A stretch of 64,000 nucleotides of DNA from Hoeflea sp. GTDB lineage: Bacteria > Pseudomonadota > Alphaproteobacteria > Rhizobiales > Rhizobiaceae. The DNA lies in the NCBI RefSeq assembly GCF_030682515.1, contig NZ_JAUXOD010000121.1, positions 1 to 64,000 of the forward strand, written 5' to 3'. Shown here one piece after another: positions 6,925 through 22,516 of the stretch. A model generated the notes under the pieces. The model was not told the DNA's origin. It worked only from the letters and a program-made list of their open reading frames with translations, and did not search any database. How positions within the stretch are numbered: position 1 is the stretch's first letter; every line of letters starts with the position of its first letter. A program made the translations under genes and the position numbers.

Positions 6925-8565
6925 ATGATCCTGCGGTCGATGACGGTGGCGCTGTGCTGCGGGGTTTGGACCCGGCCAAAGCCCTATCGCGCGCGGCGTG
7001 TTCATGCGGTGATGGCTGGGGCGCTGCGGCGCGGGCCGCGCACCAGCGGAGCGGGCGAGGTCCGCGAAGACTACGAGGCCCGCGAGGCGGGCGATGCGGC
7101 AGGGGCGCAGGAAAGATTTGATGCCGCGCGGATGGGCGCGCAGATCGGCGTCTCCGGGGCGGCCGGCCTGGGTGGTGCGCGCGGCGTGCGGGTCGTGGCC
7201 GGGGCTGCGGAACTGACAGCGGTGCCGGGACCCGCCGGACTGCTGGCACTCTTTGGCGCGGCGGCGGCCGGTGGCGCGGAGAGCGTCGCCGACCTTGTGG
7301 CGGCGCATATATTGCGGTTCGACGACCAGGCGCTGATCGCCCAGGCCCATGACTGGCGGCTGCTGGCGCGGCCAGATCAATTGCCGCCCGAGGGCGACTG
7401 GCGCACCTGGCTGATGATGGGCGGGCGCGGCTCGGGCAAGACCCGCGCCGGGGCCGAATGGGTGCATGCGCTTGCCACGGGCGAGATCGGCGGCCTTGGC
7501 AGGGATGGCCGCATCGCGCTGGTGGCGGAAACCTTTGGCGATGCCCGCGAGGTGATGATCGACGGCGTGTCGGGGATTTTGGGCGTGGCGCGCGACCAGC
7601 GTCCGGCCTTCGAGGCGACGCGGCGCCGGTTGGTGTGGCCCTCGGGGGCGGTGGCGCAGATGTTCTCGTCCGAAGATCCCGAAAGCCTGCGCGGGCCGCA
7701 ATTCGATCTGGCCTGGTGCGACGAGCTCGGCAAATGGCGCCATGCGCGCGAGACCTGGGACATGCTGCAGTTCGCGCTGCGGCTGGGCACGGCGCCGAGG
7801 CAGCTTGTGACGACGACTCCGAGGGCGACGCCCTTGATGCTGGCGCTGGTCAAGGATCCCGCCACGCGGGTGACGCGGATCAGGACCGAGGACAATGCGG
7901 CGCATCTGGCGGCGGGGTTTCTCGAGGCGATCCGGGCGCGCTACGGCGGCACGCGGCTCGGGCGGCAGGAGCTCGACGGCGAGCTGATCGCCGACCGCGA
8001 GGACGGGCTGTGGCGGCGCGACCAGATCGAGGCGCTGACGGTGCGCAACCACGGGCTGCTCTCGCGCATTGTCGTGGCGGTCGATCCGCCGGCGTCAGGC
8101 GAGGCGAAATACTCCTGCTGCGGAATTGTCGTGGCCGGCCTCGGTCCGGACGGCCGCGCTGTGGTGCTGGCCGACGGTTCGGTCGAGGGCGCGAGCCCGA
8201 CAGGCTGGGCTGAGGCGGTGGTGCGGCTCTACCGGCGGTTTGACGCCGATTGCGTGGTGGCCGAGATCAACCAGGGCGGCGACATGGTGACGAGCGTGCT
8301 GAGGACCGTCGAGCCGTCGCTGCCGGTCAAGACCGTGCGGGCGACGCGCGGCAAATGGCTGCGCGCCGAACCGGTGGCGGCCCTTTATGAGCAGGGACGG
8401 GTGGTCCATGCCGGCCATTTCGCGAGCCTCGAGGACCAGATGTGCGATTTCGGCCCGGACGGGCTCTCCTCCGGCCGCTCGCCCGACCGGCTCGACGCGC
8501 TGGTCTGGGCGCTGACCGAGTTGGTGTTGGGCCGCAGGAGCGAGCCGCAGGTCAGGCATTTGTGA
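6925..8565 (+). CDS. GTA large terminase subunit (TerL, g2)
   Basis: This is the ATP-driven DNA packaging motor and headful nuclease. The Walker A motif is GGRGSGKT at about residues 166-173, the Walker B-like acidic motif is DLAWCDE near residue 262, and the nuclease domain starts with VVAVDPPASG. Recognisable homology begins only near 7200-7260 (LLALFGAAAAGG onward); family members usually have about 420-450 residues. The true start may therefore be a GTG at 7195 or 7222 rather than the ATG at 6925, which does have GGAAGG upstream. The first 90 residues look unlike a terminase. The last residues, PQVRHL, recur at the end of the next gene. The neighbouring gene order (TerS, portal, protease/capsid) supports a GTA origin. 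Confidence 0.9.
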   Translation: MILRSMTVALCCGVWTRPKPYRARRVHAVMAGALRRGPRTSGAGEVREDYEAREAGDAAGAQERFDAARMGAQIGVSGAAGLGGARGVRVVAGAAELTAVPGPAGLLALFGAAAAGGAESVADLVAAHILRFDDQALIAQAHDWRLLARPDQLPPEGDWRTWLMMGGRGSGKTRAGAEWVHALATGEIGGLGRDGRIALVAETFGDAREVMIDGVSGILGVARDQRPAFEATRRRLVWPSGAVAQMFSSEDPESLRGPQFDLAWCDELGKWRHARETWDMLQFALRLGTAPRQLVTTTPRATPLMLALVKDPATRVTRIRTEDNAAHLAAGFLEAIRARYGGTRLGRQELDGELIADREDGLWRRDQIEALTVRNHGLLSRIVVAVDPPASGEAKYSCCGIVVAGLGPDGRAVVLADGSVEGASPTGWAEAVVRLYRRFDADCVVAEINQGGDMVTSVLRTVEPSLPVKTVRATRGKWLRAEPVAALYEQGRVVHAGHFASLEDQMCDFGPDGLSSGRSPDRLDALVWALTELVLGRRSEPQVRHL

Positions 8566-8578: not shown

Positions 8579-8631
8579 TCGGGGACGGTTTATTTTTTCG
8601 GGCGTTGCCCAAAAAAGTAAACCGTCCCCGA
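8579..8631. repeat. REP-like palindrome between TerL and methyltransferase
   Basis: Two arms of about 25 nt (8579-8603 and 8607-8631) form a nearly perfect inverted repeat with cores GGGGACGGTTTA and TAAACCGTCCCC and a 3-nt loop. T/A runs lie on the inner flanks. The core resembles palindromes recognised by REP-associated tyrosine transposases in other genomes; no such transposase is in this window. It could also act as a bidirectional terminator. Confidence 0.75.
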
Positions 8632-8688
8632 CATCCGGCGCGGAATCAGACAGGATCGGGCTTGAGGCAATGGCGACGGGCGGCAAGG

Positions 8689-9333
8689 ATGGATCTGGAG
8701 TCAGAAGCAGGCATCGCCGCGGTGCTGGCGGGCTATGCCGCCGCCGGGGCAGAGTGGATCGCGCGCTCGGACGGGTTGAGTCCAGACGAAATCTACCAAT
8801 CTGTGGCGGACCTGCTGCCGGTCCATGCGGCACGCATCCTGGATTTGGGGGCTGCGACCGGACGCGATGCGGCCTGGCTCGTCCGAAAGGGACACCGAGT
8901 CACCGCAGTGGAGCCGGTTGCTAACCTCAGGCAAGCCGGACAGAGGCTTCATCCGGAGGCAGGCATCGACTGGATTGATGATCGATTGCCGATGCTTGAG
9001 CGGATGGGGCCGAAAGTCTTCGACTGCGTGCTCGCCAATGGCGTGCTGCATCATCTGGACGCGGTTGCGCAGGAGAGGGCGGTGGCCCGGATGGCGGGAC
9101 TGCTCGCGCCCGGCGGGCTGCTGATCGCGGCGCTCAGGCATGGTGCCGGCCCGAAGGACCGTCCGGTCTGGCCGGTCGATGTGGCGGCGCTGGTCGCCGT
9201 GGCGCAGGCGAGCGGGCTGGACCTCACGCGGCTTGTGGAGACGGGCTCGATCCAGCCACAGAACCAGGACCTCGGCGTGACCTGGACCTGGCTGGCGCTG
9301 AGACGGGCCGCGCCGCAGGTGCGGCATTTGTGA
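8689..9333 (+). CDS. Class I SAM-dependent methyltransferase (cargo in GTA cluster)
   Basis: This 214-residue enzyme has the Rossmann-fold motif I ILDLGAATGRDAAWL, an acidic motif II (HRVTAVEPV), and the motif IV region FDCVLANGVLHHLD followed by LLAPGGLLIAALRHG. The substrate cannot be inferred; the pattern is that of small-molecule or O/N-methyltransferases, and there is no DPPY-type DNA methylation motif. The ATG at 8689 is preferred over a TTG at 8605 inside the upstream palindrome. Codon usage is somewhat less GC-biased than in the GTA genes. Its last six residues and stop (PQVRHL) duplicate the TerL terminus. RcGTA has no such gene between g2 and g3, so this is probably an insertion. 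Confidence 0.85.
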   Translation: MDLESEAGIAAVLAGYAAAGAEWIARSDGLSPDEIYQSVADLLPVHAARILDLGAATGRDAAWLVRKGHRVTAVEPVANLRQAGQRLHPEAGIDWIDDRLPMLERMGPKVFDCVLANGVLHHLDAVAQERAVARMAGLLAPGGLLIAALRHGAGPKDRPVWPVDVAALVAVAQASGLDLTRLVETGSIQPQNQDLGVTWTWLALRRAAPQVRHL

Positions 9334-9411: not shown

Positions 9412-9717
9412 ATGATTCGCCATATCGTGTTTTTCAGCGTCCGCGACCCGGCCGATCGCGACCGGGTGGAACAGGGCCTCAAGCTGCTGGCCGCGATCCC
9501 CCAGGCACGGAATTTTGAAGTCGGCCGCAATCTCGCCCGGGATGCGATCTCGGAGCCTGTGGATTTCATCGTCTATTGCGAATTCGACGACGAGGCGGCG
9601 CTGGCCGCTTACAAGGCCGATCCGCTCTACCAGCGCTCGATCGACGTGGTACGGCCCTTGAGGGAGCTCAGGATTGCCGCAGATTTTGTGAGCGCAGGAC
9701 CGGCCGCCCGCGACTGA
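9412..9717 (+). CDS. Dabb (stress-responsive alpha/beta-barrel) domain protein
   Basis: This 101-residue protein starts MIRHIVFFSVRD and continues with PQARNFEVGRNL, DFIVYCEFDDEAALAAY and PLYQRSIDVVRPL. That is the usual strand-helix pattern of the dimeric ferredoxin-like Dabb domain. The conserved H in RHIVFF is present. A GAAAGGAAG ribosome site lies before the ATG. A Rho-independent terminator follows at 9757-9788. The protein has no obvious role in a virion; it is a second non-structural gene between terminase and portal. Dabb proteins include stress-induced proteins and some cyclases, and the activity here is unknown. Confidence 0.85.
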   Translation: MIRHIVFFSVRDPADRDRVEQGLKLLAAIPQARNFEVGRNLARDAISEPVDFIVYCEFDDEAALAAYKADPLYQRSIDVVRPLRELRIAADFVSAGPAARD

Positions 9718-9815: not shown

Positions 9816-10994
9816 ATGGCATTCGGATTGAGGCTTCCCTGGACCCGCACTGCTTCGTCACGACCGCCCGCGGCCAAGAACTGGCTGCCGGGCGCGATCG
9901 CAGCACTTGCCGACGGCGACGGCGCGCGCTGGAGCGGGCGCAGCTACGGGGGCCTGGCGCGCGAGGGCTTCATGCGCAACCCGGTCGCGCACCGTGCCGT
10001 CCGGATGATCGCCGAGGCCGCGGCTTCCGTGCCCTTCGTGGTGTTCGACCAAGGCCGCGAGCAGGAGCGCCATCCGGTCATGGACCTGCTGAACCGTCCC
10101 GACCCGAACGGCGCGGGCTCGGGCTTCTTCGAGACGCTCTACGGGCACCTGGTGCTCGCGGGCAATGCCTGGATCAACCCGGTCGGAGCGGGCGGCCGGA
10201 TCGCCGGGCTGCAGCTGCTCCGGCCCGACCGCATGCGGGTGATCGAGGGACCGGACGGCTGGCCGGTGGCCTATGAGCACCAGGCGGGCGGCCGGCGGCA
10301 GCGCTTTCAGGCCCAGCCCGAGGAGGGGCCGGGGCTCTTGCATTTGAAGCTGTTTCATCCGCTCGACGATCATCTGGGGTTTGCGCCGCTCGAGGCGGCG
10401 CTGATGGCGCTGGATCTGCACAATGCGGCGATGAGCTGGAACAAGGCGCTTTTGGACAATTCCGCCCGGCCCTCGGGCGCGCTGGTCTACCAGCCCAAGG
10501 ACGGCGGCAACCTGACGCCCGAGCAGTATCAGCGGCTCAAGGCCGAGCTCGAGGACGGCTACCAGGGCGCGCGCCGCGCCGGGCGGCCGATGCTGCTCGA
10601 GGGCGGGCTCGACTGGAAGGCGATGGGGCTCACGCCCCGCGACATGGATTTCATCGAGGCCAGGAACGGGGCGGCGCGCGACATAGCCTTAGCACTCGGC
10701 GTGCCGCCGATGCTCTTGGGCATTCCCGGTGACCTGACCTACGCCAACTACCAGGAGGCCAACCGCGCCTTCTGCAGGTTGACCGTGCTGCCGCTGGTGG
10801 GCCGCACGGCGGCCGCGCTGACGGCCTGGCTGCAGCCGGTTCATGGCGCGGGGCTGAAGGTCGACTACGACGCCGACCGGCTGCCAGGGCTGTCCGTCGA
10901 GCGCGACGCGCTGTGGGCGCGCCTCGGTGCGGCCGATTTCCTGACGGACGAGGAAAAGCGCGAAGCCGTGGGATATCAAAGTGTTGCGGGCTGA
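9816..10994 (+). CDS. GTA portal protein (HK97 family, g3)
   Basis: The portal forms the dodecameric ring at the packaging vertex, through which DNA enters and leaves the capsid. The 392 residues carry typical HK97-portal landmarks: NPVAHRAVRMIAEAAASVPF, HPVMDLLNRPDP, LVLAGNAWI, a LDNSARPSGAL clip region, and a PPMLLGIPGD near the C terminus followed by YANYQEANRAF. Length is normal for the family. A GAAAGGG ribosome site lies 8 nt before the ATG. The upstream terminator means that transcription must read through it or start again in the 27-nt gap. Confidence 0.95.
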   Translation: MAFGLRLPWTRTASSRPPAAKNWLPGAIAALADGDGARWSGRSYGGLAREGFMRNPVAHRAVRMIAEAAASVPFVVFDQGREQERHPVMDLLNRPDPNGAGSGFFETLYGHLVLAGNAWINPVGAGGRIAGLQLLRPDRMRVIEGPDGWPVAYEHQAGGRRQRFQAQPEEGPGLLHLKLFHPLDDHLGFAPLEAALMALDLHNAAMSWNKALLDNSARPSGALVYQPKDGGNLTPEQYQRLKAELEDGYQGARRAGRPMLLEGGLDWKAMGLTPRDMDFIEARNGAARDIALALGVPPMLLGIPGDLTYANYQEANRAFCRLTVLPLVGRTAAALTAWLQPVHGAGLKVDYDADRLPGLSVERDALWARLGAADFLTDEEKREAVGYQSVAG

Positions 10995-11067
10995 ACCGGA
11001 CTCAAGTCCGAAGGCACTTGAATCAGGTTCTGAACGCAGGCTCTCGGTCAGGCAGGGAGGCGAGGCA

Positions 11068-11388
11068 ATGTCGGACATCACTCCGGACCATTCCATGCTG
11101 GCGATGCGGATCGCCGGCGCCATCGCCGGGGCGCTGGTCTCGCTCGCCTACATGATGCCCAAGGGCGCGCGGGAAGCTGCGGCGCGGGCGATTGCCGGCT
11201 TCATCTCCGGCCTGGTCTTCGGCGCCCCGGCGGGCGTGGCGCTGGCGCAGTGGATGGGGGTGAGCGATCTGCTCTCGCCATCCGAGATCCTGCTCACCGG
11301 ATCGGCGGCGGCGAGCCTGACGGCCTGGTGGGCGCTCGGCGCGCTGGCGCGGATCGCCGCAAGGACCGGGCGGGGACGGGGCGGTTAG
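11068..11388 (+). CDS. Small membrane protein of the GTA cluster (DUF6107-like)
   Basis: This 106-residue protein has two or three hydrophobic helices (AGAIAGALVSLAYMMP, AIAGFISGLVFGAPAGVAL, ILLTGSAAASLTAWWALGALARIA). It begins MSDITPDHSML with GGGAGGCGAGG just upstream; a longer frame opening at 10981 lacks a ribosome site and overlaps the portal end. It occupies the g3.5 position between portal and protease. Rhizobial GTA clusters carry a similar gene that I recall as DUF6107, but this name is uncertain. Role unknown. Confidence 0.7.
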   Translation: MSDITPDHSMLAMRIAGAIAGALVSLAYMMPKGAREAAARAIAGFISGLVFGAPAGVALAQWMGVSDLLSPSEILLTGSAAASLTAWWALGALARIAARTGRGRGG

Positions 11389-11432
11389 AATTTCCAAACA
11401 CTTTAATTGGGCGGGATGGCGGCGGTGACTTG

Positions 11433-11563
11433 CCTCCCCCTTGAGGGGAGGCGGGCGATTGGCTCGGCGCAGCCGAGACAGAGCCGGTGGGGGTTACGAC
11501 CTAACCATCTGTCTCAGCGCGTGAAGTTTACCCCCACCCCAACCCCTCCCCTCAAGGGGGAGG
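11433..11563. repeat. Large nested palindrome between g3.5 and protease/capsid
   Basis: Perfect 19-bp inverted arms lie at 11433-11451 and 11545-11563 (CCTCCCCCTTGAGGGGAGG and its complement). Nested inside are a GGTGGGGGT / ACCCCCACC pair and a CTCGGC-GCA-GCCGAG hairpin. The text resembles a dispersed intergenic repeat common in Hyphomicrobiales. It fills most of the 11389-11620 gap in the GTA cluster. Confidence 0.75.
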
Positions 11564-11620
11564 GGCTTAGGGCCTGCAGCCTCTAATCACCATCGAAATC
11601 ATTTCACGAAAGGACATCCC

Positions 11621-13585
11621 ATGGCTGCGAGAGCACTGCCGGGACGGCAGCGAAAACGTGTTGATCTGGCTTTGGAGGACGTGAGCGGGGACGGCAGTTT
11701 CTCGGGCTATGCGAGCCTGTTCGGCGCGGTCGATCTCGGCCGCGACGTGATCGAGCCCGGCGCCTTCGCCGCCTCGCTCAAGCGCCGGGGAGCGGGCGAT
11801 GTCCGCATGCTCTACCAGCACGACCCGGACCAGCCGATCGGCCGCTGGCTGTCGATCCGCGAGGACGCGCGGGGCTTGCATGTCGAGGGCAAGCTGTCGC
11901 TCGGCGTGGCTCGGGCGCGGGAGGTGCATGAGCTGATGAAATCCGGCGCGCTCGACGGCCTGTCGATCGGCTTCCAGACAGTTCGCGCCCGAACCGAGGC
12001 CAAGGGTGGGGTGCGCCGGATCCTGAGCGCCGATCTCTGGGAGATCTCGGTGGTGACGTTTCCGATGCAGCCGGGCGCGCGGGTGACCGCGGTCAAGGCC
12101 GCGGCGGATGCGCCGCTCACCGTGCGCGACCTCGAACACCGGCTCACGCGGGATGCGGGGCTGACCAGACGCCAGGCGCGCGGGCTGATTGCCCGCGGCC
12201 ATGGCGGCCTTCCGGACAGGCGGGATGCTGGCCCGGAGGTTCTCAAACGCCTGGAACTCAAGCTCAGAACCCTGACCGGGGCGCTGGCGGGTTCCGCCCC
12301 ATCCACCGAATTCACCCTGTTGAAAGGACGACCCATGACCAGTCAGTCGAAAACCCGAACCCGGCGCGCGCCGGAAACCAAGAGCGTCGACGCCGATATC
12401 GCCGACGCCTTCGAGGACTTCATGTCCGCCTTCGAGCACTACAAGCAGACCAATGAGCAGCGGCTCGCCGAGATCGAGCGTCGCGGCGGCGCCGATGTGC
12501 TGTTTGAGGAAAAAATGGCCCGCATCGACCAGGCGCTCGACGAGCAGAAGCGCACGATGGATGCGCTCATCGTCAAGCGCGCCCGCCCCGATCTCGGACA
12601 TGGCGGCGGCTCGGCGCCGAGCGCGGTGCGCCAGGCCTTTGACGCCTATGTGCGGCGCGGCGACGAGGCCGGGCTGCGCCAGGGCGAACTCAAGGCCATG
12701 TCGGTGGGCAGCGATCCCGATGGCGGCTACCTGGTGCCTGACGAACTCGACACCGAGATCGGCCGCAGGCTTTCCGAACTCTCGCCGATCCGCTCGATTG
12801 CGACGGTGCGGCAAGTGTCGGGCGCGGTGCTGAAGAAGCCGTTTGCATTGAACGGCATGGCCACGGGCTGGGTGGGCGAGACCGCCGCGCGGCCGCAGAC
12901 GGCCACGCCGCAGCTGACCGAGCTGCAGTTTCCGACCATGGAGATCTACGCCATGCCGGCCGCCACCGCCTCGCTGATCGAGGACGGCGCGCTCGACATC
13001 GAGGGCTGGATCGCCACCGAAGTGGAAGCCGCGTTTGCCGAGCAGGAGGGCGCGGCCTTCGTCGCGGGCGACGGGATCAACAAGCCGCGCGGTTTCCTCG
13101 ACTATCCCAATGTCGCGGACAGCGCCTGGACCTGGGGCAACCTCGGCTTCATCGCCACCGGGGCTGCGGGCGCCTTCGGGACCAACCCGTCCGACCGGTT
13201 GATCGAGCTGATCTATGCGCTCAAAGCCGGGCACCGGCAGAACGGTCGCTTCGTGATGAACCGCAAGACCCAGGCCCAGATCCGCAAGTTCAAGGATGCG
13301 GACGGCAACTATCTCTGGATGCCGCCGGCGGGCGCAGGCCAGGCGGCCTCGCTGATGGGCTTCCCGGTGGTCGAGGCCGAGGACATGCCCGACATCGCCA
13401 CGGGGGCGCTGTCATTGGCCTTCGGCGATTTCCGCCGCGGCTATCTGGTGGTCGACCGGACGGGCGTGCGCATCCTGCGCGATCCCTATTCGGCCAAGCC
13501 CTATGTGCTTTTCTACACCACCAAGCGTGTGGGCGGCGGGGTGCAGAATTTCGAGGCGATCAAGCTTCTGAAATTCGCCGCCTGA
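11621..13585 (+). CDS. Prohead protease and major capsid protein in one frame (g4-g5)
   Basis: The 654-codon frame encodes an HK97-type prohead protease (about residues 15-165) with catalytic His67 in YQHDP and Ser115 in DGLSIGF. A linker follows, and then the HK97-fold major capsid from Met239. The capsid part has a coiled-coil delta/scaffold region (about residues 250-315) and the mature shell domain (GELKAMSVGSDPDGGYLVPDE onward, ending VQNFEAIKLLKFAA). No stop separates the two. An internal ATG at 12335 with GAAAGGA 6 nt upstream should give free 416-residue capsid, so both a fusion and separate capsid are possible. In RcGTA the two are separate genes. A TGA at 12321 in the +1 frame overlaps the internal ribosome site, suggesting how the ancestral stop was lost. 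Confidence 0.93.
   Translation: MAARALPGRQRKRVDLALEDVSGDGSFSGYASLFGAVDLGRDVIEPGAFAASLKRRGAGDVRMLYQHDPDQPIGRWLSIREDARGLHVEGKLSLGVARAREVHELMKSGALDGLSIGFQTVRARTEAKGGVRRILSADLWEISVVTFPMQPGARVTAVKAAADAPLTVRDLEHRLTRDAGLTRRQARGLIARGHGGLPDRRDAGPEVLKRLELKLRTLTGALAGSAPSTEFTLLKGRPMTSQSKTRTRRAPETKSVDADIADAFEDFMSAFEHYKQTNEQRLAEIERRGGADVLFEEKMARIDQALDEQKRTMDALIVKRARPDLGHGGGSAPSAVRQAFDAYVRRGDEAGLRQGELKAMSVGSDPDGGYLVPDELDTEIGRRLSELSPIRSIATVRQVSGAVLKKPFALNGMATGWVGETAARPQTATPQLTELQFPTMEIYAMPAATASLIEDGALDIEGWIATEVEAAFAEQEGAAFVAGDGINKPRGFLDYPNVADSAWTWGNLGFIATGAAGAFGTNPSDRLIELIYALKAGHRQNGRFVMNRKTQAQIRKFKDADGNYLWMPPAGAGQAASLMGFPVVEAEDMPDIATGALSLAFGDFRRGYLVVDRTGVRILRDPYSAKPYVLFYTTKRVGGGVQNFEAIKLLKFAA
12322..12337 (+). 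promoter_or_regulatory. Internal ribosome binding site and start for the major capsid
   Basis: GAAAGGA (12322-12328) precedes an in-frame ATG (12335-12337) inside the protease-capsid frame. The same GAAAGGAC sequence precedes several other starts in the cluster. It implies independent synthesis of a 416-residue capsid protein. Confidence 0.75.
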
Positions 13586-13610
13586 TCAAAGCCCGAAGTT
13601 TCGAGACATT

Positions 13611-13635
13611 CCTCTCCCGGTTTTCCGGGGGAGGG
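13611..13635 (+). terminator. GC-rich hairpin after the capsid gene
   Basis: A CCTCTCCCGG / CCGGGGGAGG stem with a TTTT loop lies in the short gap between capsid and connector. There is no T-run after it, so it may affect mRNA stability rather than termination. Confidence 0.4.
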
Positions 13636-13672
13636 ATCCCGACACCTTCACGCCAAACTCCCGGAGACCGCC

Positions 13673-14239
13673 ATGACCCTGATCCAGACCGATCCGCCCT
13701 TGGCGGAGCCGGTGACGCTTGCCGAACTCAAGGCGCATCTGCGGATCGATGCTGCCGACGAGGACGAGCTTCTCGAAGGCCTGATCCGGGTTGCCCGCGC
13801 GCATCTTGAAGCCGTGGCCGGCGTGGCGCTGATGAGCCAGGGGTTCCGGCTGTTGCTCGATGACTGGCCGCGGGGATCGGTGATTCAGCTCATGAAAACC
13901 CCGGTTCAAACCATTGACGGGATTCTGGTTTATGACGCTGACGGGGTGGCGCAGGATCTCGCGCTCTCCGACATGCTGCTCGACGCCACGGCGCGCCCGG
14001 CGCGACTGGTGATCAAGGAGCGGCCGCGGCCGGGCCAGCCGATCAACGGCATCGAGATCGAGTTCACCGCGGGCTTCGGGTCGGCGCTGGAAGTGCCGCC
14101 CGAACTCAAGCGGGCGATCCTGGTGCATGCCGCGCATCTTTATGAGTTCCGCGGCGCGGTGACGCTCGCCATGCAGCCGGCTTCGATCCCGCCGGGCTAC
14201 GACCGGCTGATCGCGCCCTGGCTGAGGCGGGGGCTGTGA
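13673..14239 (+). CDS. Head-tail connector protein (gp6-like, g6)
   Basis: This 188-residue protein forms the ring under the portal that joins head to tail. The pattern MTLIQTDPPLAEPVTLAELKAHLRID, with EDELLEGLIRVARAHLEAVAG, is the HK97 gp6 / phiE125 gp8 helical fold. Later strands (PVQTIDGILVYD, YDADGV) and the helix ELKRAILVHAAHLYEFRG are typical of the longer GTA version. The stop TGA overlaps the start of the next gene (TGATG), indicating translational coupling. Confidence 0.9.
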   Translation: MTLIQTDPPLAEPVTLAELKAHLRIDAADEDELLEGLIRVARAHLEAVAGVALMSQGFRLLLDDWPRGSVIQLMKTPVQTIDGILVYDADGVAQDLALSDMLLDATARPARLVIKERPRPGQPINGIEIEFTAGFGSALEVPPELKRAILVHAAHLYEFRGAVTLAMQPASIPPGYDRLIAPWLRRGL

Positions 14240-14574
14240 TGGGCGGGCTGTTTGTCGATCCGGGCCTGCTCAGCGCGCGGCTGTCGCTGGAAACGCCCGA
14301 AGAGCGGCCCGACGGGCAGGGCGGCATGACCGAGGGCTGGGTGCCGGTGGCGAGCCTGTGGGGGCGGATCGAGCCGCTCGGGGCGCGCCCGGACGAGATC
14401 GCCGGAGCGGCGATTGCGATGATCGCCCACCGCGTCACCATCCGCCACCGCGAGGATGTTCGCCACGCCATGCGCTTTGTCCACCGGGGCCGAAACCTCG
14501 TCATCCGCGCGGTGCGCGATCCCGACGAGAGGCGCCGCTACCTGGTCTGCGACTGCGAGGAGGTGATGCCATGA
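14239..14574 (+). CDS. Head closure / head-tail adaptor protein (g7)
   Basis: This 111-residue protein belongs by pattern to the phage head closure knob family (TIGR01563-like): LSLETPEERPDGQGGMTEGW, then SLWGRIEPLGARP, the strand HRVTIRHREDV and a terminal RYLVCDCEEV. It acts as the stopper between connector and tail. The ATG overlaps the preceding stop, and the next gene overlaps it by an ATGA. Identification relies on the conserved order connector-stopper-terminator and on the SLWGRIEP motif. Confidence 0.88.
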   Translation: MGGLFVDPGLLSARLSLETPEERPDGQGGMTEGWVPVASLWGRIEPLGARPDEIAGAAIAMIAHRVTIRHREDVRHAMRFVHRGRNLVIRAVRDPDERRRYLVCDCEEVMP

Positions 14575-14969
14575 GCGCCAATCACTTGCAGAGTGCGGTG
14601 GTCGAGCGGCTCGCCGGCGATCCCGATGTGACCGCGATCGCCGGCGCCGGCCGGATCTTCGACCGGCAGATCACCCGCGCCGAGCCGCCTTACCTGGTGC
14701 TGGGCGAGATGACGACATCGGATTTTTCGACCGGCGACGGCGCCGGAAGCGAGCACCGGTTCGAGATCGAGGCCTGGAGCAAGGACAACGGCCGCAGGCA
14801 GGCGGCAGCGCTGGCCGACGCCGTGCGCGCGGCGCTGCATGACGCCGATCTCGCGCTTGCCGGCGCGGTGCTGATCAATCTCCGCCACGAGCGCACGGTG
14901 AGCCGGCGTGCGCCGAAGTCTGGCCTGCACGTGGCGCGGCTCAGGTTCCGCGCGGTGACCGAGCCGTGA
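14571..14969 (+). CDS. Tail terminator protein (DUF3168, g8)
   Basis: This 132-residue protein starts MSANHLQSAVVERLAGDPDV and contains IFDRQITRAEPPYLVLGEMTTSDFS, GSEHRFEIEAWSKDNGR and ADAVRAALHDADL. These are DUF3168 landmarks; members form the ring that caps the tail tube and joins it to the head. The ATG overlaps the previous stop codon (ATGA). Confidence 0.92.
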   Translation: MSANHLQSAVVERLAGDPDVTAIAGAGRIFDRQITRAEPPYLVLGEMTTSDFSTGDGAGSEHRFEIEAWSKDNGRRQAAALADAVRAALHDADLALAGAVLINLRHERTVSRRAPKSGLHVARLRFRAVTEP

Positions 14970-15018
14970 GCGCGAGTGCCGCGATCCCCCATTTTCCAGA
15001 GCATGAAAGGACACGCCG

Positions 15019-15426
15019 ATGACGGCCCAGAAAGGCAAGGACCTGCTCATCAAGATCGATGATGACGGGGCATATGTGACCATCGCTGGCCTGCGCGCCC
15101 GACGGTTGGCGTTCAACGCGCAGGCCGTCGACATCACCGACGCGGAATCGGCAGGGCGCTGGCGTGAGCTGCTCGGCGGCGCGGGCGTGCAGCGCGCCTC
15201 GCTGTCGGGCGGCGGGCTGTTCAAGGACCAGGCAAGCGACGCGCTGGCGCGCGCGGTGTTCTTCGCCACCGAGATCCGCGGCTGGCAGGTGGCGATCCCC
15301 GACTTCGGCACCGTCACCGGCCCGTTCCAGATCACGGCGCTTGAATATGCCGGGCGGCACGACGGCGAGATGAGTTTCGAGATCGCGCTCGAATCCGCTG
15401 GCGCACTCTCTTTCGCCGCCCTGTGA
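15019..15426 (+). CDS. Major tail tube protein (TP901-1 family, g9)
   Basis: This 135-residue tail tube subunit starts MTAQKGKDLLIKIDDDG and has the LRARRLAFNAQAVDITDAES pattern typical of TIGR02126 tail proteins, followed by WRELLGGAGVQRASLSGGG and a C-terminal beta hairpin (DGEMSFEIALESAGALSF). A GAAAGGAC ribosome site precedes it. The stop is directly followed by the g10-like gene. Confidence 0.93.
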   Translation: MTAQKGKDLLIKIDDDGAYVTIAGLRARRLAFNAQAVDITDAESAGRWRELLGGAGVQRASLSGGGLFKDQASDALARAVFFATEIRGWQVAIPDFGTVTGPFQITALEYAGRHDGEMSFEIALESAGALSFAAL

Positions 15427-15434
15427 GGCGGGCG

Positions 15435-15845
15435 ATGGGTGTTCATCCCAACCGCCGCCGCGGCGAGATCGCGGCCACCTTCGATGGCGAGACGCGGCTC
15501 CTGTGCCTGACGCTTGGCGCGCTGGCCGAACTCGAAAGCGCCTTTGGCGTCGGCAATCTCGCCGAGCTTGCGGGCCGCTTCGAGGCGGGGCGGCTGTCGG
15601 CGGGCGACATCATCCGCGTCCTCGGCGCCGGGCTTCGCGGCGCGGGCAATGCGTTCAGCGACGAGGACGTGGCGGTCATGTCGGTCGAGGGCGGGGCAGC
15701 GGGCTTTGCCCGGATCGCCACGGAGTTGCTGTGGGTGAGCTTCGGCGGCGCCCTCGAAATCAGCTCATCCCCAGATCGGGAGGACCGGGCCACGCCTGCG
15801 GGCAGGCCGGAAAACCCTCCCGGGCCGCAGGCGGAAGCTTGGTGA
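15435..15845 (+). CDS. GTA-family tail assembly chaperone-like protein (g10)
   Basis: This protein of about 136 residues has the pattern NRRRGEIAATFDGETRLLCLTLGALAELESAFG, then AELAGRFEAGRLSAGDIIRVLGAGLRGAG. This is the GTA-specific g10 family (TIGR02215/DUF3356-type small tail protein), thought to act in tail assembly with g10.1. The ATG at 15435 has GAGGCGGG before it; a GTG at 15423 that overlaps the previous stop is an alternative. The C-terminal 25 residues are proline/glycine-rich. The stop overlaps the GTG start of the next gene. Confidence 0.88.
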   Translation: MGVHPNRRRGEIAATFDGETRLLCLTLGALAELESAFGVGNLAELAGRFEAGRLSAGDIIRVLGAGLRGAGNAFSDEDVAVMSVEGGAAGFARIATELLWVSFGGALEISSSPDREDRATPAGRPENPPGPQAEAW

Positions 15846-16069
15846 CGGAGCCGGACCGGACGTTTTTCCCCTGGGCGTCCGTGATCCGCTTCGGCCTCGC
15901 CCGCCTGCGGCTGCCCCCTCACGCCTTCTGGCGCCTGAGCCTGGTCGAACTGACGGCGCTGATCGACGCCGGAGACTTGCCGGCGATGGCGACGCGCCAG
16001 GGACTTGAGGCGCTGATGGCGCAGTTTCCGGACACGGCACTGAAAAAGGAGCCCGACGATGACCGATGA
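15842..16069 (+). CDS. Phage tail assembly chaperone (rcc01693 family, g10.1)
   Basis: This 75-residue protein starts at a GTG that overlaps the previous stop (GTGA). The pattern PWASVIRFGLARLRLPPHAFWRLSLVEL contains the FGL..LRL.P..FW..SL..L signature of TIGR02216, the rcc01693 family found in GTA clusters next to the tape measure gene. The end overlaps the tape measure gene by 11 bp. It is often missed because of its size and GTG start. Confidence 0.88.
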   Translation: MTEPDRTFFPWASVIRFGLARLRLPPHAFWRLSLVELTALIDAGDLPAMATRQGLEALMAQFPDTALKKEPDDDR

Positions 16070-16643
16070 GCCGAACCTGAATGTGAGCGTCGAGCTCGAT
16101 CTCAACGGCGCCGACCGGGCGCTCGACGAACTCCGCGACAAGGCAGATGCCTTTGGCGGCACGCTGTCCGGCGCCTTGAAGGCGGCCACCGTCGACGGGC
16201 GCGCGCTCGACGACGTGCTGCGCACGCTCGGCACCCGCATGGTGGGCATTGCGCTCGACGCGGGCATGAAGCCGCTCGAGCAGTTGATCAGCAGCTCGAT
16301 TTCCGGGCTCACGGGAAGTCTCGGCCGGGTGCTGCCCTTCGCCAAGGGCGGCGTGCCGGGCAGGCTCACCGCTTTCGCCGACGGCGGCGTGGTGGGCGGG
16401 CCCTCCTATTTCCCGATGGCGGGCGGCGAGGTGGGCCTGATGGGGGAGGCCGGCGCCGAGGCGATCCTGCCGCTCAGCCGCGGGCCTGACGGCAGGCTCG
16501 GAGTGGCCGCCGGCGGAAGCGGCCAGGCGGTGCATGTGACGTTCAACGTGACGACGCCGGACGTGGCGGGCTTTGCCAAATCCGAGGCGCAGGTCAGCGC
16601 CATGCTGGCCCGCGCGGTCGGCCGCGGCCGGCGCGGGTTGTGA
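16059..16643 (+). CDS. GTA tail tape measure protein (g11)
   Basis: This 194-residue protein sets tail length. It begins with an acidic beta strand (LNVSVELDLNGADRALDELR), then a short helical region, and continues with the glycine-rich motif FAKGGVPGRLTAFADGGVVGGPSYFPM followed by GLMGEAGAEAILPLSRG, which is diagnostic of tape measure C termini. It is far shorter than phage tape measures but normal for GTAs, whose tails are short. It overlaps the upstream chaperone gene. Confidence 0.92.
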   Translation: MTDEPNLNVSVELDLNGADRALDELRDKADAFGGTLSGALKAATVDGRALDDVLRTLGTRMVGIALDAGMKPLEQLISSSISGLTGSLGRVLPFAKGGVPGRLTAFADGGVVGGPSYFPMAGGEVGLMGEAGAEAILPLSRGPDGRLGVAAGGSGQAVHVTFNVTTPDVAGFAKSEAQVSAMLARAVGRGRRGL

Positions 16644-16659
16644 GCGGGAGGAGACGGCC

Positions 16660-17301
16660 ATGAGCAACGGTTTTCACGAAATTCGGTTTCCGCTGCGGTT
16701 GTCGCTGGGCGCCAGCGGCGGGCCGGGGCGGCGCACCGACATCGTGGCGCTGTCGAATGGCGGCGAGACGCGCAATGCGCGCTGGGCCGATGCAAGGCGG
16801 CGCTATGACGCGGGCACCGGCCTGCGCGGGCTCGAGGATCTCTATGAGCTCACCGCCTTTTTCGAGGCCCGGCGCGGCCAGCTCCATGGCTTCCGGTTTC
16901 GCGATCCGGTCGATCACGCCTCGGCGCCGCCGGGGCAGGCGGTGACGTCCATCGACCAGCCGATCGGCACCGGCGACGGGGTGAGGACCCTGTTCGCGCT
17001 GTCCAAGACCTATGCCGACGCAGGCGGCGCGACGGTGCGCCGGATCGAAAAGCCGGTGGCCGGCAGCGTCGTGGTGGCGGTGGGCGGCGTGAGCCTCGCT
17101 TCGGGCGCCTATTCCGTCGACAGCGCCACGGGGCTGGTGACGTTTGCCCCCGGCCTGACGCCGGCGCCCGGCGCGCCTGTGACGGCGGGCTTCGAGTTCG
17201 ACATCCCGGTGCGCTTTGGCACCGACCGCATCGAGATCAGCCTGGCGGCGTTCAAGGCGGGGTCCGCGCCCTCCGTGCCCCTGGTGGAGATCAAGCCATG
17301 A
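16660..17301 (+). CDS. Distal tail protein (TIGR02217/DUF2460, g12)
   Basis: This 213-residue protein begins FHEIRFPLRLSLGASGGPGRRTDIV and continues with ALSNGGETRNARWADARRRYD and RGQLHGFRFRDPVDH, the invariable landmarks of the DUF2460 family. It forms the distal tail ring below the tail tube in RcGTA. GGAGGAG lies 7 nt upstream of the chosen ATG. It overlaps the next gene by an ATGA. Confidence 0.95.
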   Translation: MSNGFHEIRFPLRLSLGASGGPGRRTDIVALSNGGETRNARWADARRRYDAGTGLRGLEDLYELTAFFEARRGQLHGFRFRDPVDHASAPPGQAVTSIDQPIGTGDGVRTLFALSKTYADAGGATVRRIEKPVAGSVVVAVGGVSLASGAYSVDSATGLVTFAPGLTPAPGAPVTAGFEFDIPVRFGTDRIEISLAAFKAGSAPSVPLVEIKP

Positions 17302-18188
17302 GAGACTTTCCGAGCGCACTCACCGCCCATCTCGCCCAGACCTCGACCACCACCTGCCACGCCTGGCGGTTGACGCGGGCGGATGGTCTGGTGCTGGGGT
17401 TCACCGAGCATGATCATGACCTTGAATTTGCCGGCACGGTGTTTTCCGCCGCCACCGGGTTTCGCGCGAGCGAGGTGGAATCGGGCCTGGGTCTCGAGGC
17501 CGACGCCGCCGATGTGGCGGGCGCCTTTTCGGACGAGGCGATCAGCGCCGACGATCTGGCGCTCGGCCGCTATGACGGCGCGCGGGTGGAGGCCTTTCTG
17601 GTCAACTGGCAAAGCCCCGCGGACCACGCGCTGCTGTGGGTCCGGGACCTGGGCGAGGTGCGGAGCGCCGGCCCGGCTTTTGCGGTGGAACTGCGCAGCC
17701 TGGCGGCCCGGCTCGACCAGCCGCGCGGACGCCTCTATGGCAGCCGCTGCGACGCTGATCTTGGCGACGGGCGATGCGCCAGGGACATTTCAGCGCCGCC
17801 GTTCCGGATGGGCGCAACCATCGTGGCAGTGCCCGACGAGATGACGCTGGTTGCGAGCGGGCTTGGCGACCGGCCGGCGGGCTGGTTCGGGGGTGGCCGC
17901 CTGAGGTTCCTGACCGGTCTGCTTGCCGGGCTGACGGCGGACATTTCGGCCCACGGCATCGAAGCCGGCGGCGCGCGGCTGGAGCTGTGGTCGCCAATGG
18001 CGCGGCTGCCATCGCCCGGCGACGGGCTCGAGGTCACGGCGGGCTGCGACAAATCCTTCGACACCTGTCGAGACAAATTCGCCAACATCCTCAACTTTCA
18101 GGGGTTTCCTTTCCTGCCTGGCAGCGATTTCGCCTATGGCTACGCCGATGCGGACACGGTCCATGACGGCCGGCCGATCGTGCCATGA
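17298..18188 (+). CDS. Tail hub protein (TIGR02218/DUF2163, g13)
   Basis: This 296-residue baseplate hub protein has TCHAWRLTRADGLVLGFTEHDHDL at the start and LYGSRCDADLGDGRC plus TAGCDKSFDTC later. The last two contribute four cysteines, matching the iron-sulfur site described in the RcGTA hub. FQGFPFLPGSD at the end is typical for TIGR02218. Start and stop both overlap neighbouring genes (ATGA), so this is a tightly coupled tail-tip unit. Confidence 0.94.
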   Translation: MRDFPSALTAHLAQTSTTTCHAWRLTRADGLVLGFTEHDHDLEFAGTVFSAATGFRASEVESGLGLEADAADVAGAFSDEAISADDLALGRYDGARVEAFLVNWQSPADHALLWVRDLGEVRSAGPAFAVELRSLAARLDQPRGRLYGSRCDADLGDGRCARDISAPPFRMGATIVAVPDEMTLVASGLGDRPAGWFGGGRLRFLTGLLAGLTADISAHGIEAGGARLELWSPMARLPSPGDGLEVTAGCDKSFDTCRDKFANILNFQGFPFLPGSDFAYGYADADTVHDGRPIVP

Positions 18189-18628
18189 GCGGCGACGACC
18201 AGGGCGCGCGCGTGGTCGCGGCGGCGCGGGCCTGGATCGGCACGCCCTACCGGCACCAGGGCGCGCGCAAGGGTGTGGGCTGCGACTGCCTGGGTCTGGT
18301 GCGCGGCGTCTGGGCCGAGATCATGGGCCGCGAGGCGGAACGGCCCGGAGCCTATGCGCCCGACTGGGCCGAACGCGGGTGCTCCGACCGGCTGATCGAG
18401 GCGGCGCTCCGGCATTGCGGTCCGGCGATCCCCCTGGCCATGGCGGGGGCCGGGGACATCATCCTGTTTCGCTGGCGCGACGGTGTGTCGGCCAAGCACG
18501 CGGGCATTCTTTCGGACGCCGACCATTTCATCCACGCCTACGAGGCCGCGGGCGTCATCGAGAGCGCGCTGGTTCCCTCCTGGCGGCGGCGGATCGCGGT
18601 GGTGCACCGGTTTCCGAACCCGGCCTGA
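18185..18628 (+). CDS. NlpC/P60 cell wall peptidase of the tail tip (g14)
   Basis: This 147-residue protein probably opens peptidoglycan during DNA delivery. It has ARAWIGTPYRHQGARKGVGCDC with the catalytic Cys35 in CDCLGLVRG, His105 in AKHAGIL, and a third polar site near HAYEAAG. The motif order is that of TIGR02219 peptidases encoded between hub and host-contact protein in GTAs and siphoviruses. The catalytic residues are intact. Confidence 0.94.
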   Translation: MSGDDQGARVVAAARAWIGTPYRHQGARKGVGCDCLGLVRGVWAEIMGREAERPGAYAPDWAERGCSDRLIEAALRHCGPAIPLAMAGAGDIILFRWRDGVSAKHAGILSDADHFIHAYEAAGVIESALVPSWRRRIAVVHRFPNPA

Positions 18629-18667
18629 ACATCTTCTCTCCAAGTTTCCGACAAGCGAGATCCCGAT

Positions 18668-21600
18668 ATGGCGACTATCCTCTTGCAGGTGGCGGGCGCG
18701 GCGCTCGGCGGCGTCTTCGGGCCGGTGGGCACGGCCATCGGCTCCGCCCTGGGTGCTACGCTCGGCGGCATGATCGACACGAGCCTCATCAACTCCACCC
18801 GCACGATCCGCGGCCGCGGCCTGAGCGGCGCGCGGATTCCCTCGGCCGACGAGGGCGCTCCCATCTTGAGGGTGCATGGATCGATGCGCGTCGCCGGCGC
18901 GCTGATCTGGGCGACGCGGTTCGAGGAGACGGTGACGCGGGAGCGCCAGGGCGGCAAGGGCCGGGGTCCAAAAGTCGAGACCTATAGCTATCACGCCAAT
19001 TTCGCGCTTGGCCTGTGCGAAGGGCCGATCGCCTCGATCCGCCGGGTCTGGGCTGACGGGCGCGAGCTGGATCTCGAAAGTCTCGACATGCGGGTCTACC
19101 GCGGCACCGCGGCGCAATTGCCCGACCCGCTGATCGAGGCCAAGCAGGGCGCGGGCAGGGTGCCTGCCTGGCGCGGGCTCGCCTATGTGGTGTTCGAGCG
19201 GCTGCCGCTCGATGCCTTCGGCAACCGCATCCCGGTGCTGCAGTTCGAGGTGGTGCGCCCGGTGGGACAGCTGGAAGCCGCCATCAGGGCGGTGGCGGTG
19301 ATCCCCGGCGCCACGGAGCACGGCTATGCCACCACGCCGGTGCGCGAGACGCTGGGCCCGGGCGCGGTGCGCGTGCTCAACCGCAACATGCGCCAGGCCT
19401 CGACCGACTGGACCCAGTCGATGGACGAGCTGCAGGCGCTATGCCCCAATCTCACATCGGTGGCGCTGGTCACTTCCTGGTTCGGCGACGATCTGCGCGC
19501 GGGCCATTGCCGGTTCCGTCCCGGCGTCGAGGTGGTGGCGCGGCAGGGCGAGACGCGGCCATGGAAAGTGGGCGGGCTCGATCGCACTGGCGCGCATCTG
19601 ATCAGCTTGAACGATGGCGGCCCGGCCTATGGCGGCACGCCCGATGACCGGGCGGTGATCGAGGCGATCGGCGATCTCAAAGCGCGCGGGCTCTCGGTGG
19701 TGCTCTATCCCTTCGTGCTGATGGACGTGCCGGCCGCCAACGGCCTTGCCGATCCGAACGGCGCAGCCGAACAACCGGCCTATCCCTGGCGCGGACGCAT
19801 CACCGCAAGCCCGGCGCCGGGGCGCGCGGGCACGCCGGACCGGACGGCGGCGATGCGGACCCAGATTGCGGCGATGAGCGGCGGGATGGCGCCCGCGGAT
19901 TTCACCGTTGCGGGGGACGCTGTCTCCTGGGCCGCGGGCGACGAAGGCTATCGCCGCTTCGTGCTGCATCATGCGGCGCTGGCGCTGGCCGCGGGCGGCG
20001 TCGACGGCTTCGTCATCGGATCGGAAATGACCGGGCTCACGCGATTGCGCGACGAGGCCGGCGCCTTCCCCTTCGTCGAGGAGCTGATCGCGCTGGCGGA
20101 CAACGTCAAGACGATGCTCGGGCCCGCCACCACCGTGACCTATGCCGCCGACTGGACCGAATATGCGGGCTACCGGCCCGACGACGGCTCGGGCGACGTC
20201 TTGTTCAATCTCGATCCGCTGTGGGCGCATCCGGCGATCGGCGCTGTCGGCATCGACAACTACATGCCGCTGAGCGACTGGCGCGACGGCGACCGGACCA
20301 CAGGCAACCCCGATGGCGCGCGGTTCGCCAATGATGCCCGGGCCATGGGCCGGGCGATCGCCGGGGGCGAGGGTTATGACTGGTACTATGCCAACAAGGC
20401 GGGACGCGATGCCCGCGCGCGGCTGCCGATCAGCGACGGACTCGCCGGCGAGGATTGGGTCTACCGGGTCAAGGACTTGCGCGGCTGGTGGCAGAACCCG
20501 CATTATGACCGCGTTGGCGGCAGCGAGGTGGCAAGTCCCAGCCCCTGGGTTCCGGGCTCGAAACCCTTGTGGTTCACCGAACTCGGCTGCCCGGCGGTCG
20601 ACAAGGGCGCGGGCCAGCCCAATCTGTTTCCCGATCCGAAATCGTCGGAAGGCGCGCTGCCCTGGTATTCGACCGGCGCGCGCGACGACCTGGCCCAGCG
20701 CGCCTTTCTCGAAGCCCATCTGGCCCATTGGGCGGGTCCTGCCAATGCAGACGGCATGGTCGCGACCGACCGCATCCACCTGTGGACCTGGGACGCGCGG
20801 CCCTATCCGGCCTTTCCCCTGTCGTCGACGGTGTGGTCGGATGGACCCAACTGGCGCACCGGCCACTGGCTCAACGGGCGGCTGGGGACCTTGGCGCTCA
20901 AGGATCTGATCGCCGCGGTCCTGATCGACGCCGGGATGACGGAGTTCAACGTGGACCGGGTCGACGGCATGGTCACCGGCCATGTGATCGCGGGTCCGGC
21001 CTCGGCCCGCGCGGTGCTGGAGCCGCTGCTGGAGGCCTTCGCCATCGATGTGCGCGAGGGGCCGGGCGGGCTCGAATTCGCCTCGCGGCTGAAGCTCGGC
21101 GCGGCGCCGGTCCAGATCGGCGTAGTGGCCGAGGCCGAGGAGGGGCCGCTGTTCACCGAGATCCGCGGCGAGATCGGTGAGTTTGCCAACGAGGCGGTGG
21201 TGCTGTCGGCCGACCCGCTTAATGATTACGCGCCTGCATCGGCCCGCTCGCGCAGGCTCGAGGGCGAGGCGGTGCGCCAGCGGGATCTGGCGCTGAGCCT
21301 GGCGCTGGATCCCGGGCTGGCGCGGATGACCGCCGATCAATGGCTGCACGACCATCGGCTGGGCCGCCGCCGGCTCAGCTTCGCCATGCCGCCGCAGGCG
21401 GCCCGGCTGCAGCCGGGCGATGTTGTCCGTTTTTCGCTTGAGGACGCCCCGCAGGGCCGCTTCCGCATCGCCCGCATTGAGGATGGCGACATGCGCCGCA
21501 TCGAGGCGGTGGCCCATGCGGGGACGACGCCGGGCGAGATGGCCGAAACGCTCAAGCCCCGCAGCCCCGCCGACGCCAATGCCTATTTCGCGCCGGAACT

Positions 21601-22516
21601 CGTGTTCCTCGATCTGCCGGCACTCTCCGGCGCGGAGGAAACCGGCTGGGCGCGGGCGGCCGCGCTCGGAATTCCGTGGCGGCGGATGGTGCTGTCGAGT
21701 TCGGTGGAGCAGGAGGGTTATGCCGCGCGGGTGACGCTCGATGCGCCGGCGCGGATCGGCGCGCTCTCGGCGGATCTGCCGCCGGGCGGCGTCGAAGGCC
21801 GGTTCGACCGGCGGGCGGCGCTCGAGGTGGATCTGAGCTTCGGCGGACTGTCGAGCGCCGGCCGGCTGGCGGTTCTCAACGGCGCCAATGTGGCCGCGAT
21901 CCGCTCCCTGTCGGGCGCCTGGGAAATTCTCCAGTACGAGACCGCCGAGGAAATCGCGCCCGGGCGCTGGCGGCTCACAAGCCTGCTGCGCGGGCAGGCG
22001 GGAACCGACGACGCCATGCGCGCGGGCTCGGCGGCCGGAGCGGCGTTCGTCGCGCTCGACGGCGCGGTCCGGTCGCTCGGACTGTCGATCGAGGACGCGG
22101 GACGCGCGTTCAACTGGATCGCCGAGGCTGCGGGCGGGCCCGCGGGCGGGTTTGGGCCGGTGGCCTTTGCCGGCGGCGAGCGGGCGCTCACGCCGCTGTC
22201 GCCGGTGTATCTCAGAGGCCTGCGCGTGGCGGAAGGCGTGCGCCTCTCCTGGATCCGGCGCGGCAGGCTTGCGGCCGACAGCTGGAGCCCGGCGGAGATC
22301 GCCCAGGAGGAGGGCTTCGAGCGCTACCGGATCGAGATCCTGTCGGGCGAGACGGTCGTCCGCACCGCCGAGGCCGAAAGCCCGCACTGGCTCTATCCGG
22401 CGGGCGATGAAATCGCCGACTTCGGCGCGGTGCAGGTCGCGCTCACGCTGCGCGTGGCGCAGGCCGGAAAGCGCGTGCCCTGGGGCGTGGCTCGCCGGGG
22501 CACGCTTGACCTTTGA
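18668..22516 (+). CDS. GTA megatron / host-contact protein with TIM-barrel domain (g15)
   Basis: This is the largest gene of the cluster, with 1282 residues. A glycine-rich hydrophobic start (LLQVAGAALGGVFGPVGTAIG) is followed by tail-tip domains with GPKVETYSYHANFALGLCEG. A glycoside-hydrolase-like TIM barrel lies at about residues 430-730 (VTYAADWTEYAGYRPDDGSGD, KPLWFTELGCPAVDKG), then a phage-tail_3-type domain (VDGMVTGHVIAG...) and a C-terminal beta region. In RcGTA the equivalent caps the tail and contacts the recipient envelope. No frameshift or truncation is seen. Confidence 0.95.
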   Translation: MATILLQVAGAALGGVFGPVGTAIGSALGATLGGMIDTSLINSTRTIRGRGLSGARIPSADEGAPILRVHGSMRVAGALIWATRFEETVTRERQGGKGRGPKVETYSYHANFALGLCEGPIASIRRVWADGRELDLESLDMRVYRGTAAQLPDPLIEAKQGAGRVPAWRGLAYVVFERLPLDAFGNRIPVLQFEVVRPVGQLEAAIRAVAVIPGATEHGYATTPVRETLGPGAVRVLNRNMRQASTDWTQSMDELQALCPNLTSVALVTSWFGDDLRAGHCRFRPGVEVVARQGETRPWKVGGLDRTGAHLISLNDGGPAYGGTPDDRAVIEAIGDLKARGLSVVLYPFVLMDVPAANGLADPNGAAEQPAYPWRGRITASPAPGRAGTPDRTAAMRTQIAAMSGGMAPADFTVAGDAVSWAAGDEGYRRFVLHHAALALAAGGVDGFVIGSEMTGLTRLRDEAGAFPFVEELIALADNVKTMLGPATTVTYAADWTEYAGYRPDDGSGDVLFNLDPLWAHPAIGAVGIDNYMPLSDWRDGDRTTGNPDGARFANDARAMGRAIAGGEGYDWYYANKAGRDARARLPISDGLAGEDWVYRVKDLRGWWQNPHYDRVGGSEVASPSPWVPGSKPLWFTELGCPAVDKGAGQPNLFPDPKSSEGALPWYSTGARDDLAQRAFLEAHLAHWAGPANADGMVATDRIHLWTWDARPYPAFPLSSTVWSDGPNWRTGHWLNGRLGTLALKDLIAAVLIDAGMTEFNVDRVDGMVTGHVIAGPASARAVLEPLLEAFAIDVREGPGGLEFASRLKLGAAPVQIGVVAEAEEGPLFTEIRGEIGEFANEAVVLSADPLNDYAPASARSRRLEGEAVRQRDLALSLALDPGLARMTADQWLHDHRLGRRRLSFAMPPQAARLQPGDVVRFSLEDAPQGRFRIARIEDGDMRRIEAVAHAGTTPGEMAETLKPRSPADANAYFAPELVFLDLPALSGAEETGWARAAALGIPWRRMVLSSSVEQEGYAARVTLDAPARIGALSADLPPGGVEGRFDRRAALEVDLSFGGLSSAGRLAVLNGANVAAIRSLSGAWEILQYETAEEIAPGRWRLTSLLRGQAGTDDAMRAGSAAGAAFVALDGAVRSLGLSIEDAGRAFNWIAEAAGGPAGGFGPVAFAGGERALTPLSPVYLRGLRVAEGVRLSWIRRGRLAADSWSPAEIAQEEGFERYRIEILSGETVVRTAEAESPHWLYPAGDEIADFGAVQVALTLRVAQAGKRVPWGVARRGTLDL

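Follow-up and report, generated by a model that had tools for sequence, protein, structure and literature searches.

Does a single reading frame that joins a prohead protease to a major capsid protein represent a genuine gene of a GTA head module and, if so, what does it produce and how did it arise? The question is raised by a 64,000-nt stretch of Hoeflea sp. DNA (contig NZ_JAUXOD010000121.1 of RefSeq assembly GCF_030682515.1; hereafter the window), in which one frame of 654 codons (11621-13585, + strand) joins an S78 prohead protease to an HK97-type capsid protein. In the GTA of Rhodobacter capsulatus (RcGTA), which has the same gene order as the window's cluster, the protease (g4) and the capsid (g5, Rcc01687) are separate genes, as are the protease and capsid genes of HK97. 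RcGTA shares both protein families with the window and its capsid (6tba/6tsu) is homologous, the difference being the single frame; HK97 gp4 protease and gp5 capsid also belong to these families, with an N-terminal scaffold domain and cleavage after Lys. The available text of one report likewise names the RcGTA protease and capsid as separate genes (PMC11409702).

The initial annotation had proposed that the frame runs from protease into capsid without a stop, and this was confirmed by the open frame together with both domains. Pfam searches identified Peptidase_S78 (PF04586) at residues 24-160 of the fusion (11690..12100, +; E 1.5e-34) and Phage_capsid (PF05065) at residues 368-652 (E 2.7e-91), and NCBIfam assigned the 654-codon frame to the same two families, the protease as TIGR01543; both domains thus lie within one uninterrupted frame, as in phage-type protease-capsid fusions. 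Membership of the HK97 prohead protease family (S78) is indicated by the family match and by the presence of His67 and Ser115, which we take to be the catalytic residues. These are intact, as had been claimed, and together with Lys358 are invariant in 20 aligned fused proteins. The start at 11621 is preceded by a ribosome site, GAAAGGA (11608..11614, +), and a site of the AAGGA type was found upstream of the fusion start in all 22 fused frames examined. Further upstream, the intergenic sequence at 11400-11590 is repeat-like, with CCCCCTTGAGGGG and CCCCTCAAGGGGG mutually inverted.

Between the two domains lie a protease tail (about residues 167-219; 12119..12277, +), which junction translations show to be conserved and which also occurs in separate-gene Hoeflea species, and a 57-nt linker open in frame 0 (12278..12334, +). 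Third codon positions had been described as G/C-rich up to the junction; this holds for the protease core, but the signal weakens in the tail and is absent from the linker (G+C at codon positions 1/2/3 of 0.73/0.50/0.84 in the core, 0.81/0.54/0.78 in the tail, 0.63/0.68/0.68 in the linker and 0.66/0.47/0.87 in the capsid). Parsimony steps over the last 47 codons of the tail were distributed as 49/41/100 by codon position. An AlphaFold model of the fusion, built on an alignment of 17 sequences, was uninformative (pLDDT 34).

The capsid part can also be read from its own ATG as a gene of 416 codons (12335..13585, +), this ATG standing behind a ribosome site in 25 fused-lineage junctions. Its best match by sequence among solved structures is the RcGTA capsid (6tba/6tsu; E 9e-96), and the alignment to 6tba together with the RcGTA capsid model predicts a scaffold (delta-like) domain at residues 239-358 (12335..12694, +), followed by a mature subunit carrying PF05065 (12695..13582, +); removal of the N-terminal segment on maturation is predicted from the RcGTA model. 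In the text available from the respective sources, the N-termini of the RcGTA capsid model fall at residues 99-106 (PMC7296036) and HK97 capsid is cleaved after Lys, at K103/S104 (PMC10275583). Given these positions, the alignment with the RcGTA capsid and the invariance of Lys358, maturation cleavage is predicted near Lys358/Ala359 (12692..12697, +).

The fusion had been placed in a GTA, and the surrounding genes agree with this: the cluster is of the RcGTA type, with terminase, portal, protease, capsid and tail genes, and includes the Pfam families Phage_TAC_11 (GTA-gp10), GTA_TIM and Rcc01698_C. The terminase large subunit (6925..8565, +), the portal (9816..10994, +) and a DUF6107 gene (10981-11388) precede the fusion, and head-tail genes follow it (13673..22516, +), in the order connector, head completion, tail completion, tail tube, Phage_TAC_11, TAC_6 chaperone, DUF2460, hub protein, NlpC/P60 and a 1282-residue protein with GTA_TIM and Rcc01698_C. 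From their sequences, the GTA genes of the window look intact. Between terminase and portal are a methyltransferase gene (8605-9333) and a small frame (9412-9717); the terminase frame shares its last residues, PQVRHL, with the methyltransferase frame, which suggests a repeat that supplies gene ends. Directly after the capsid gene lies a 13-bp hairpin with no T run (13608..13637, +; -23.7 kcal/mol, z -2.4), and the element CCTCTCCCGG...CCGGGGGAGGG or a variant of it was visible by eye in 21 capsid-gp6 spacers, including that of the window; possible roles are stabilisation of capsid mRNA or reduced expression of the genes downstream. A promoter and terminator scan found no promoter-like site; its three terminator-like sites, against an expectation of 1.2, all lie on the minus strand.

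An error of sequencing or assembly could have produced such a frame in a draft genome of 144 contigs, and the junction was therefore compared in related genomes. Among 18 Hoeflea genomes, 16 match the fusion query, and ten carry the full fusion (G000, the source of the window, and G001, G002, G004, G006, G008, G010, G012, G013 and G017); many close relatives thus share it, contrary to the possibility that all of them have separate frames. Across the Hoeflea-type isolates, MAGs and IMG/VR contigs examined, 24 distinct open junctions were found (L185 and L186 being nearly identical). Recurrence in independent isolates and metagenomes led us to reject an error, the probability of which is negligible, and the open junction is more than chance.

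The remaining Hoeflea genomes depart from this pattern in several ways. G014 has a fused junction, its capsid being truncated after about residue 481 and continued, as judged by eye, by sequence of the NlpC/P60 gene (L010 / L093), and its GTA looks broken by deletion. In G015 (L035 / L085) the conserved protease tail is interrupted by an in-frame TAG and the linker downstream is still open; either the fused form is dispensable there or this GTA is decaying. Protease and capsid are separate genes in G003, G007 and G016. In G005 (L172), inspection by eye placed a gp6-like frame so close behind the GTA protease that a capsid gene would not fit between them; a 54% identical capsid is present on another contig of this genome (L095). 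No match to the fusion query was obtained in G009 (77% complete) or G011.

Among the rows examined in wider searches, the GTA fusion was confined to this genus. Of 255 loci collected, 247 possess both parts, 44 rows being fused and 203 separate. The fused rows comprise 39 Hoeflea-type GTA rows, many of which represent one species present in several collections, and five rows representing two prophage-like loci of G010 and G004. The separate rows comprise ten Hoeflea-type GTA rows, ten prophage-like rows from Hoeflea and 183 GTA-type rows of non-Hoeflea origin (repeats between collections included), and none of these 183 is fused. A search of the family matched 171 of 247 genomes (E <= 1e-150), with full-length, stop-free matches coming exclusively from Hoeflea among the matches listed; none of the 57 loci inspected (26, plus 31 with long open frames) was fused. 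At the level of the class, matches came from 29 of 152 genomes, including that of the window, and no fusion was found in the 23 of the 28 other loci that have both parts. Phage records (the best 60 of 872 and best 25 of 344 matches) were judged by annotation names only. Under the title Bacillus subtilis strain SK6B4, one record contains a GTA-type locus (L026) whose match equals that of Pseudochrobactrum saccharolyticum (L027) in length and in rounded identity; this assembly is possibly mislabelled or contaminated.

If the fusion is real, is it the only product of the gene? Inside the fused frame, GAAAGGA recurs at 12322..12328 (+), followed by the ATG at 12335, which is in frame with 11621, lies 238 codons downstream of it and would yield a free capsid of 416 residues. 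This site and start had been assigned to a free capsid, and GAAAGGA proved to be kept in 25 of 25 linkers; a conserved internal ribosome site and a start in the same frame are therefore both present in the sequence. The region at the internal site folds worse than shuffled sequence (z +1.2). Among the 23 junctions with a 57-nt linker, parsimony counts on the protease-capsid gene tree gave 168 steps over the first 42 linker sites (59/40/69 by codon position), which shows that the linker amino acids are almost unconstrained, as opposed to no steps at the seven consecutive sites of GAAAGGA. These seven sites include third codon positions, and about four changes per site are seen elsewhere in the linker. 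Since they are unchanged while the rest of the linker varies, selection for internal initiation is suggested. One frame would in principle suffice if the fusion were the only product, with every capsid subunit bringing a protease into the prohead and the internal ribosome site surviving as a relic, and the linker is indeed open. Such an account fits poorly with the unchanged GAAAGGA, and a protease on every subunit, about 150 per small, oblate, T=3-derived head (the RcGTA head type according to the available text of PMC7296036), looks sterically implausible; we regard it as very unlikely.

A TGA in the +1 frame (12321..12323, +) overlaps the internal ribosome site, as the initial annotation had noted in suggesting that it looks like the ancestral stop. 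Its position matches that of the protease stop in G003, where the linker is 56 nt long and a TGA in the protease frame overlaps the ribosome site, and the ancestral-stop interpretation is consistent with this. Alternatively, the TGA might be in use, a programmed frameshift at the junction releasing free protease and leaving the fusion as a minor product. Stops occur in the +1 frame in 24 of the 25 linkers, compared with 12 in the +2 frame and none in frame 0. However, the TGA at the ribosome site is missing in three of the 25 (L009, L003 and L007) and otherwise follows simply from the TTGAAAGGA context, which makes a frameshift a highly improbable explanation. As many +1 stops arise from the ribosome site itself, the contrast between frames 0 and +1 is partly built in. 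Taking the unchanged ribosome site together with the occurrence of the same layout in distant phage-type loci, the proposal of two products, a fusion and a free capsid, gains support, and the locus probably represents a nested two-start gene in an RcGTA-type head module, encoding a protease-scaffold-capsid fusion and a free capsid.

We then considered whether selection holds the frame open or whether the fusion is a neutral accident, in which a small length change removed the stop and generated a harmless fusion from which the protease frees itself at once. The near absence of constraint on linker amino acids and the loss of continuity in G015 are in accord with an accident, as are neutral simulations in which all tips remained stop-free in 8-18% of runs, that is, with a probability of 0.08-0.18. 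These values are slightly too small, since simulated steps exceeded the observed 168 by 6-13%, and the simulation tree has an inflated L010 branch because the capsid end of L010 is non-homologous; the absence of stops was in any case discarded as proof of selection, being too weak alone. Linker length provides a contrary indication. All lengths are multiples of three (57 nt in 23 junctions, 51 nt in one and 48 nt in one), whereas the adjoining capsid-gp6 spacer, in 21 of the same lineages, ranges from 84 to 90 nt with eight phase-changing length steps. At the spacer rate, 3.8 such steps would be expected in 42 nt of linker, and the probability of observing none is about 0.02. This comparison covers 21 of the 25 fused-lineage rows, leaving out L010, L207 and L193, which yielded no spacer, and L007, which has an 827-nt gap; in the latter (Hoeflea olei), the gap between capsid and gp6, after position 4971, consists of an assembly gap and further sequence. 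A neutral origin and persistence also sits uneasily with the retention of ten full copies across the genus and with the recurrence of a similar layout in distantly related phage-type loci, and we consider it rather unlikely. Taken together, GAAAGGA, the stops and the linker phase constitute moderate, though not decisive, sequence evidence for selection keeping the frame open.

The origin of the fusion was traced using a species tree of rpoB and gyrB from 18 genomes and three outgroups (the latter rpoB only). All fused genomes, together with G015 and the two genomes without a match, form one clade (support 92), with G003, G005, G007 and G016 branching before it (supports 64-83) and G003 being the nearest separate-gene genome. 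By contrast, the best gene tree of the protease-capsid core nests the G003 sequence within a set of fused sequences (support 97), with the G007/G016 type beside that set (support 81); on removal of L010 the former support of 97 is retained and the latter becomes 75. When only codon positions 1 and 2 are used, G003 falls just outside 18 fused-lineage sequences (80), the fused ones still being split, and the AU test does not reject a gene tree in which the fused sequences form a single clade (P 0.21). Concerning vertical inheritance, 16 of 18 genomes match, G005 is GTA-like in the protease only, and the gene and species trees differ; their disagreement over the separate-gene species may reflect exchange of GTA genes between species. 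The simplest reading is a single origin with some gene exchange or weak resolution, although reversals or repeated gains of the fusion are conceivable. Most simply, therefore, the fusion arose once, within Hoeflea, from separate and closely spaced genes. The linker measures 56 nt in G003 and, in 23 of the 25 junctions of the fused lineage, 57 nt, so that a single net change in length could account for the fusion.

A similar layout was found in phage-type loci. Two prophage-like loci in Hoeflea genomes (L167 and L168) possess S78-capsid fusions of their own, each with a ribosome site and an ATG where the two parts meet, and the L168 protein is 39% identical to that of the window but lacks the protease tail. 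Searching IMG/VR with the L168 protein yielded 29 loci, 16 of them with both parts and 12 of those 16 fused, a count that includes the prophage from which the query was taken (L297). The junction zone of ten of the 12 fused frames contains a ribosome site plus ATG, whereas the frequency of this pattern elsewhere in these frames predicts 0.4; in L304 and L306 an in-frame ATG is present at the junction but the ribosome site pattern is lacking. Another prophage (G014:C7), considered as a third fused prophage, was rejected, its protease and capsid being separate. Domain order in all these fused loci (L167, L168 and the 12 from the IMG/VR search) is the same as in the window, and their fusions probably had a separate origin.

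Fusions of protease and capsid are in themselves known from phages. The thaumarchaeal proviruses NCAV2-Pro1 / NitIsl-Pro1, in which S78 is fused to the MCP, and Nvie-Pro1 carry such fusions, as do LC2 and LC3 of M. nodulans ORS 2060 (PMC6563490 and PMC11409702); these resemble the window in having both domains in one protein and differ in being proviruses rather than GTAs, and the available text of the two sources mentions no second start. In Paracoccus siphovirus prophages, a ClpP-type protease is fused before a Mu gpT-type head protein (17, or 34%, in the available text of PMC6536676), so that the protease precedes the capsid as in the window but both families differ. Among the papers listed in literature searches, titles and first lines of abstracts contained no report of a protease-capsid fusion in a GTA. 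What appears to be new here is that a domesticated GTA carries a protease-capsid gene of the nested two-start kind.

From these features a candidate mechanism can be outlined. Because no stop remains between the domains, initiation at 11621 must result in the 654-residue protease-tail-linker-scaffold-capsid protein, as read from the sequence, while initiation at 12335 on the conserved GAAAGGA would give the free 416-residue capsid precursor. The two would co-assemble through their common scaffold and capsid parts, holding the protease inside the prohead on the inward-facing end of the scaffold, at a dose set by the ratio of the two starts. By analogy with HK97, the protease would at maturation cut at about Lys358/Ala359; the subunits would thereby lose the scaffold, and the fused subunits the protease as well, with identical mature capsid subunits as the predicted outcome. 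Nested protease-scaffold genes are known from lambda (C/Nu3) and herpesviruses (UL26/UL26.5), where a long protease-scaffold form is accompanied by a short scaffold form that comes from an in-frame internal start; there the scaffold is separate from the capsid protein, whereas in the window it is a domain of the capsid. We tentatively suggest, at somewhat short of even confidence, that Hoeflea carries a domesticated GTA in which self-tethering of the protease has been selected, probably with one origin, and in which the protease dose of each prohead is determined by two in-frame starts, in convergence with the logic of UL26/UL26.5 and of distant prophages. This suggestion is weakened by the gene tree, which shows no single fused clade.

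Extant members of this GTA lineage include species with and without the fusion, which makes protease tethering testable within a single genus. The fusion further suggests that, among GTA head genes, some remain under functional selection rather than undergoing mere decay. That prophage-type loci of distant relationship have a similar layout points to two starts as a recurrent means of dosing the maturation protease and, if self-tethering is true, the particle would still be selected for efficient head maturation in Hoeflea.
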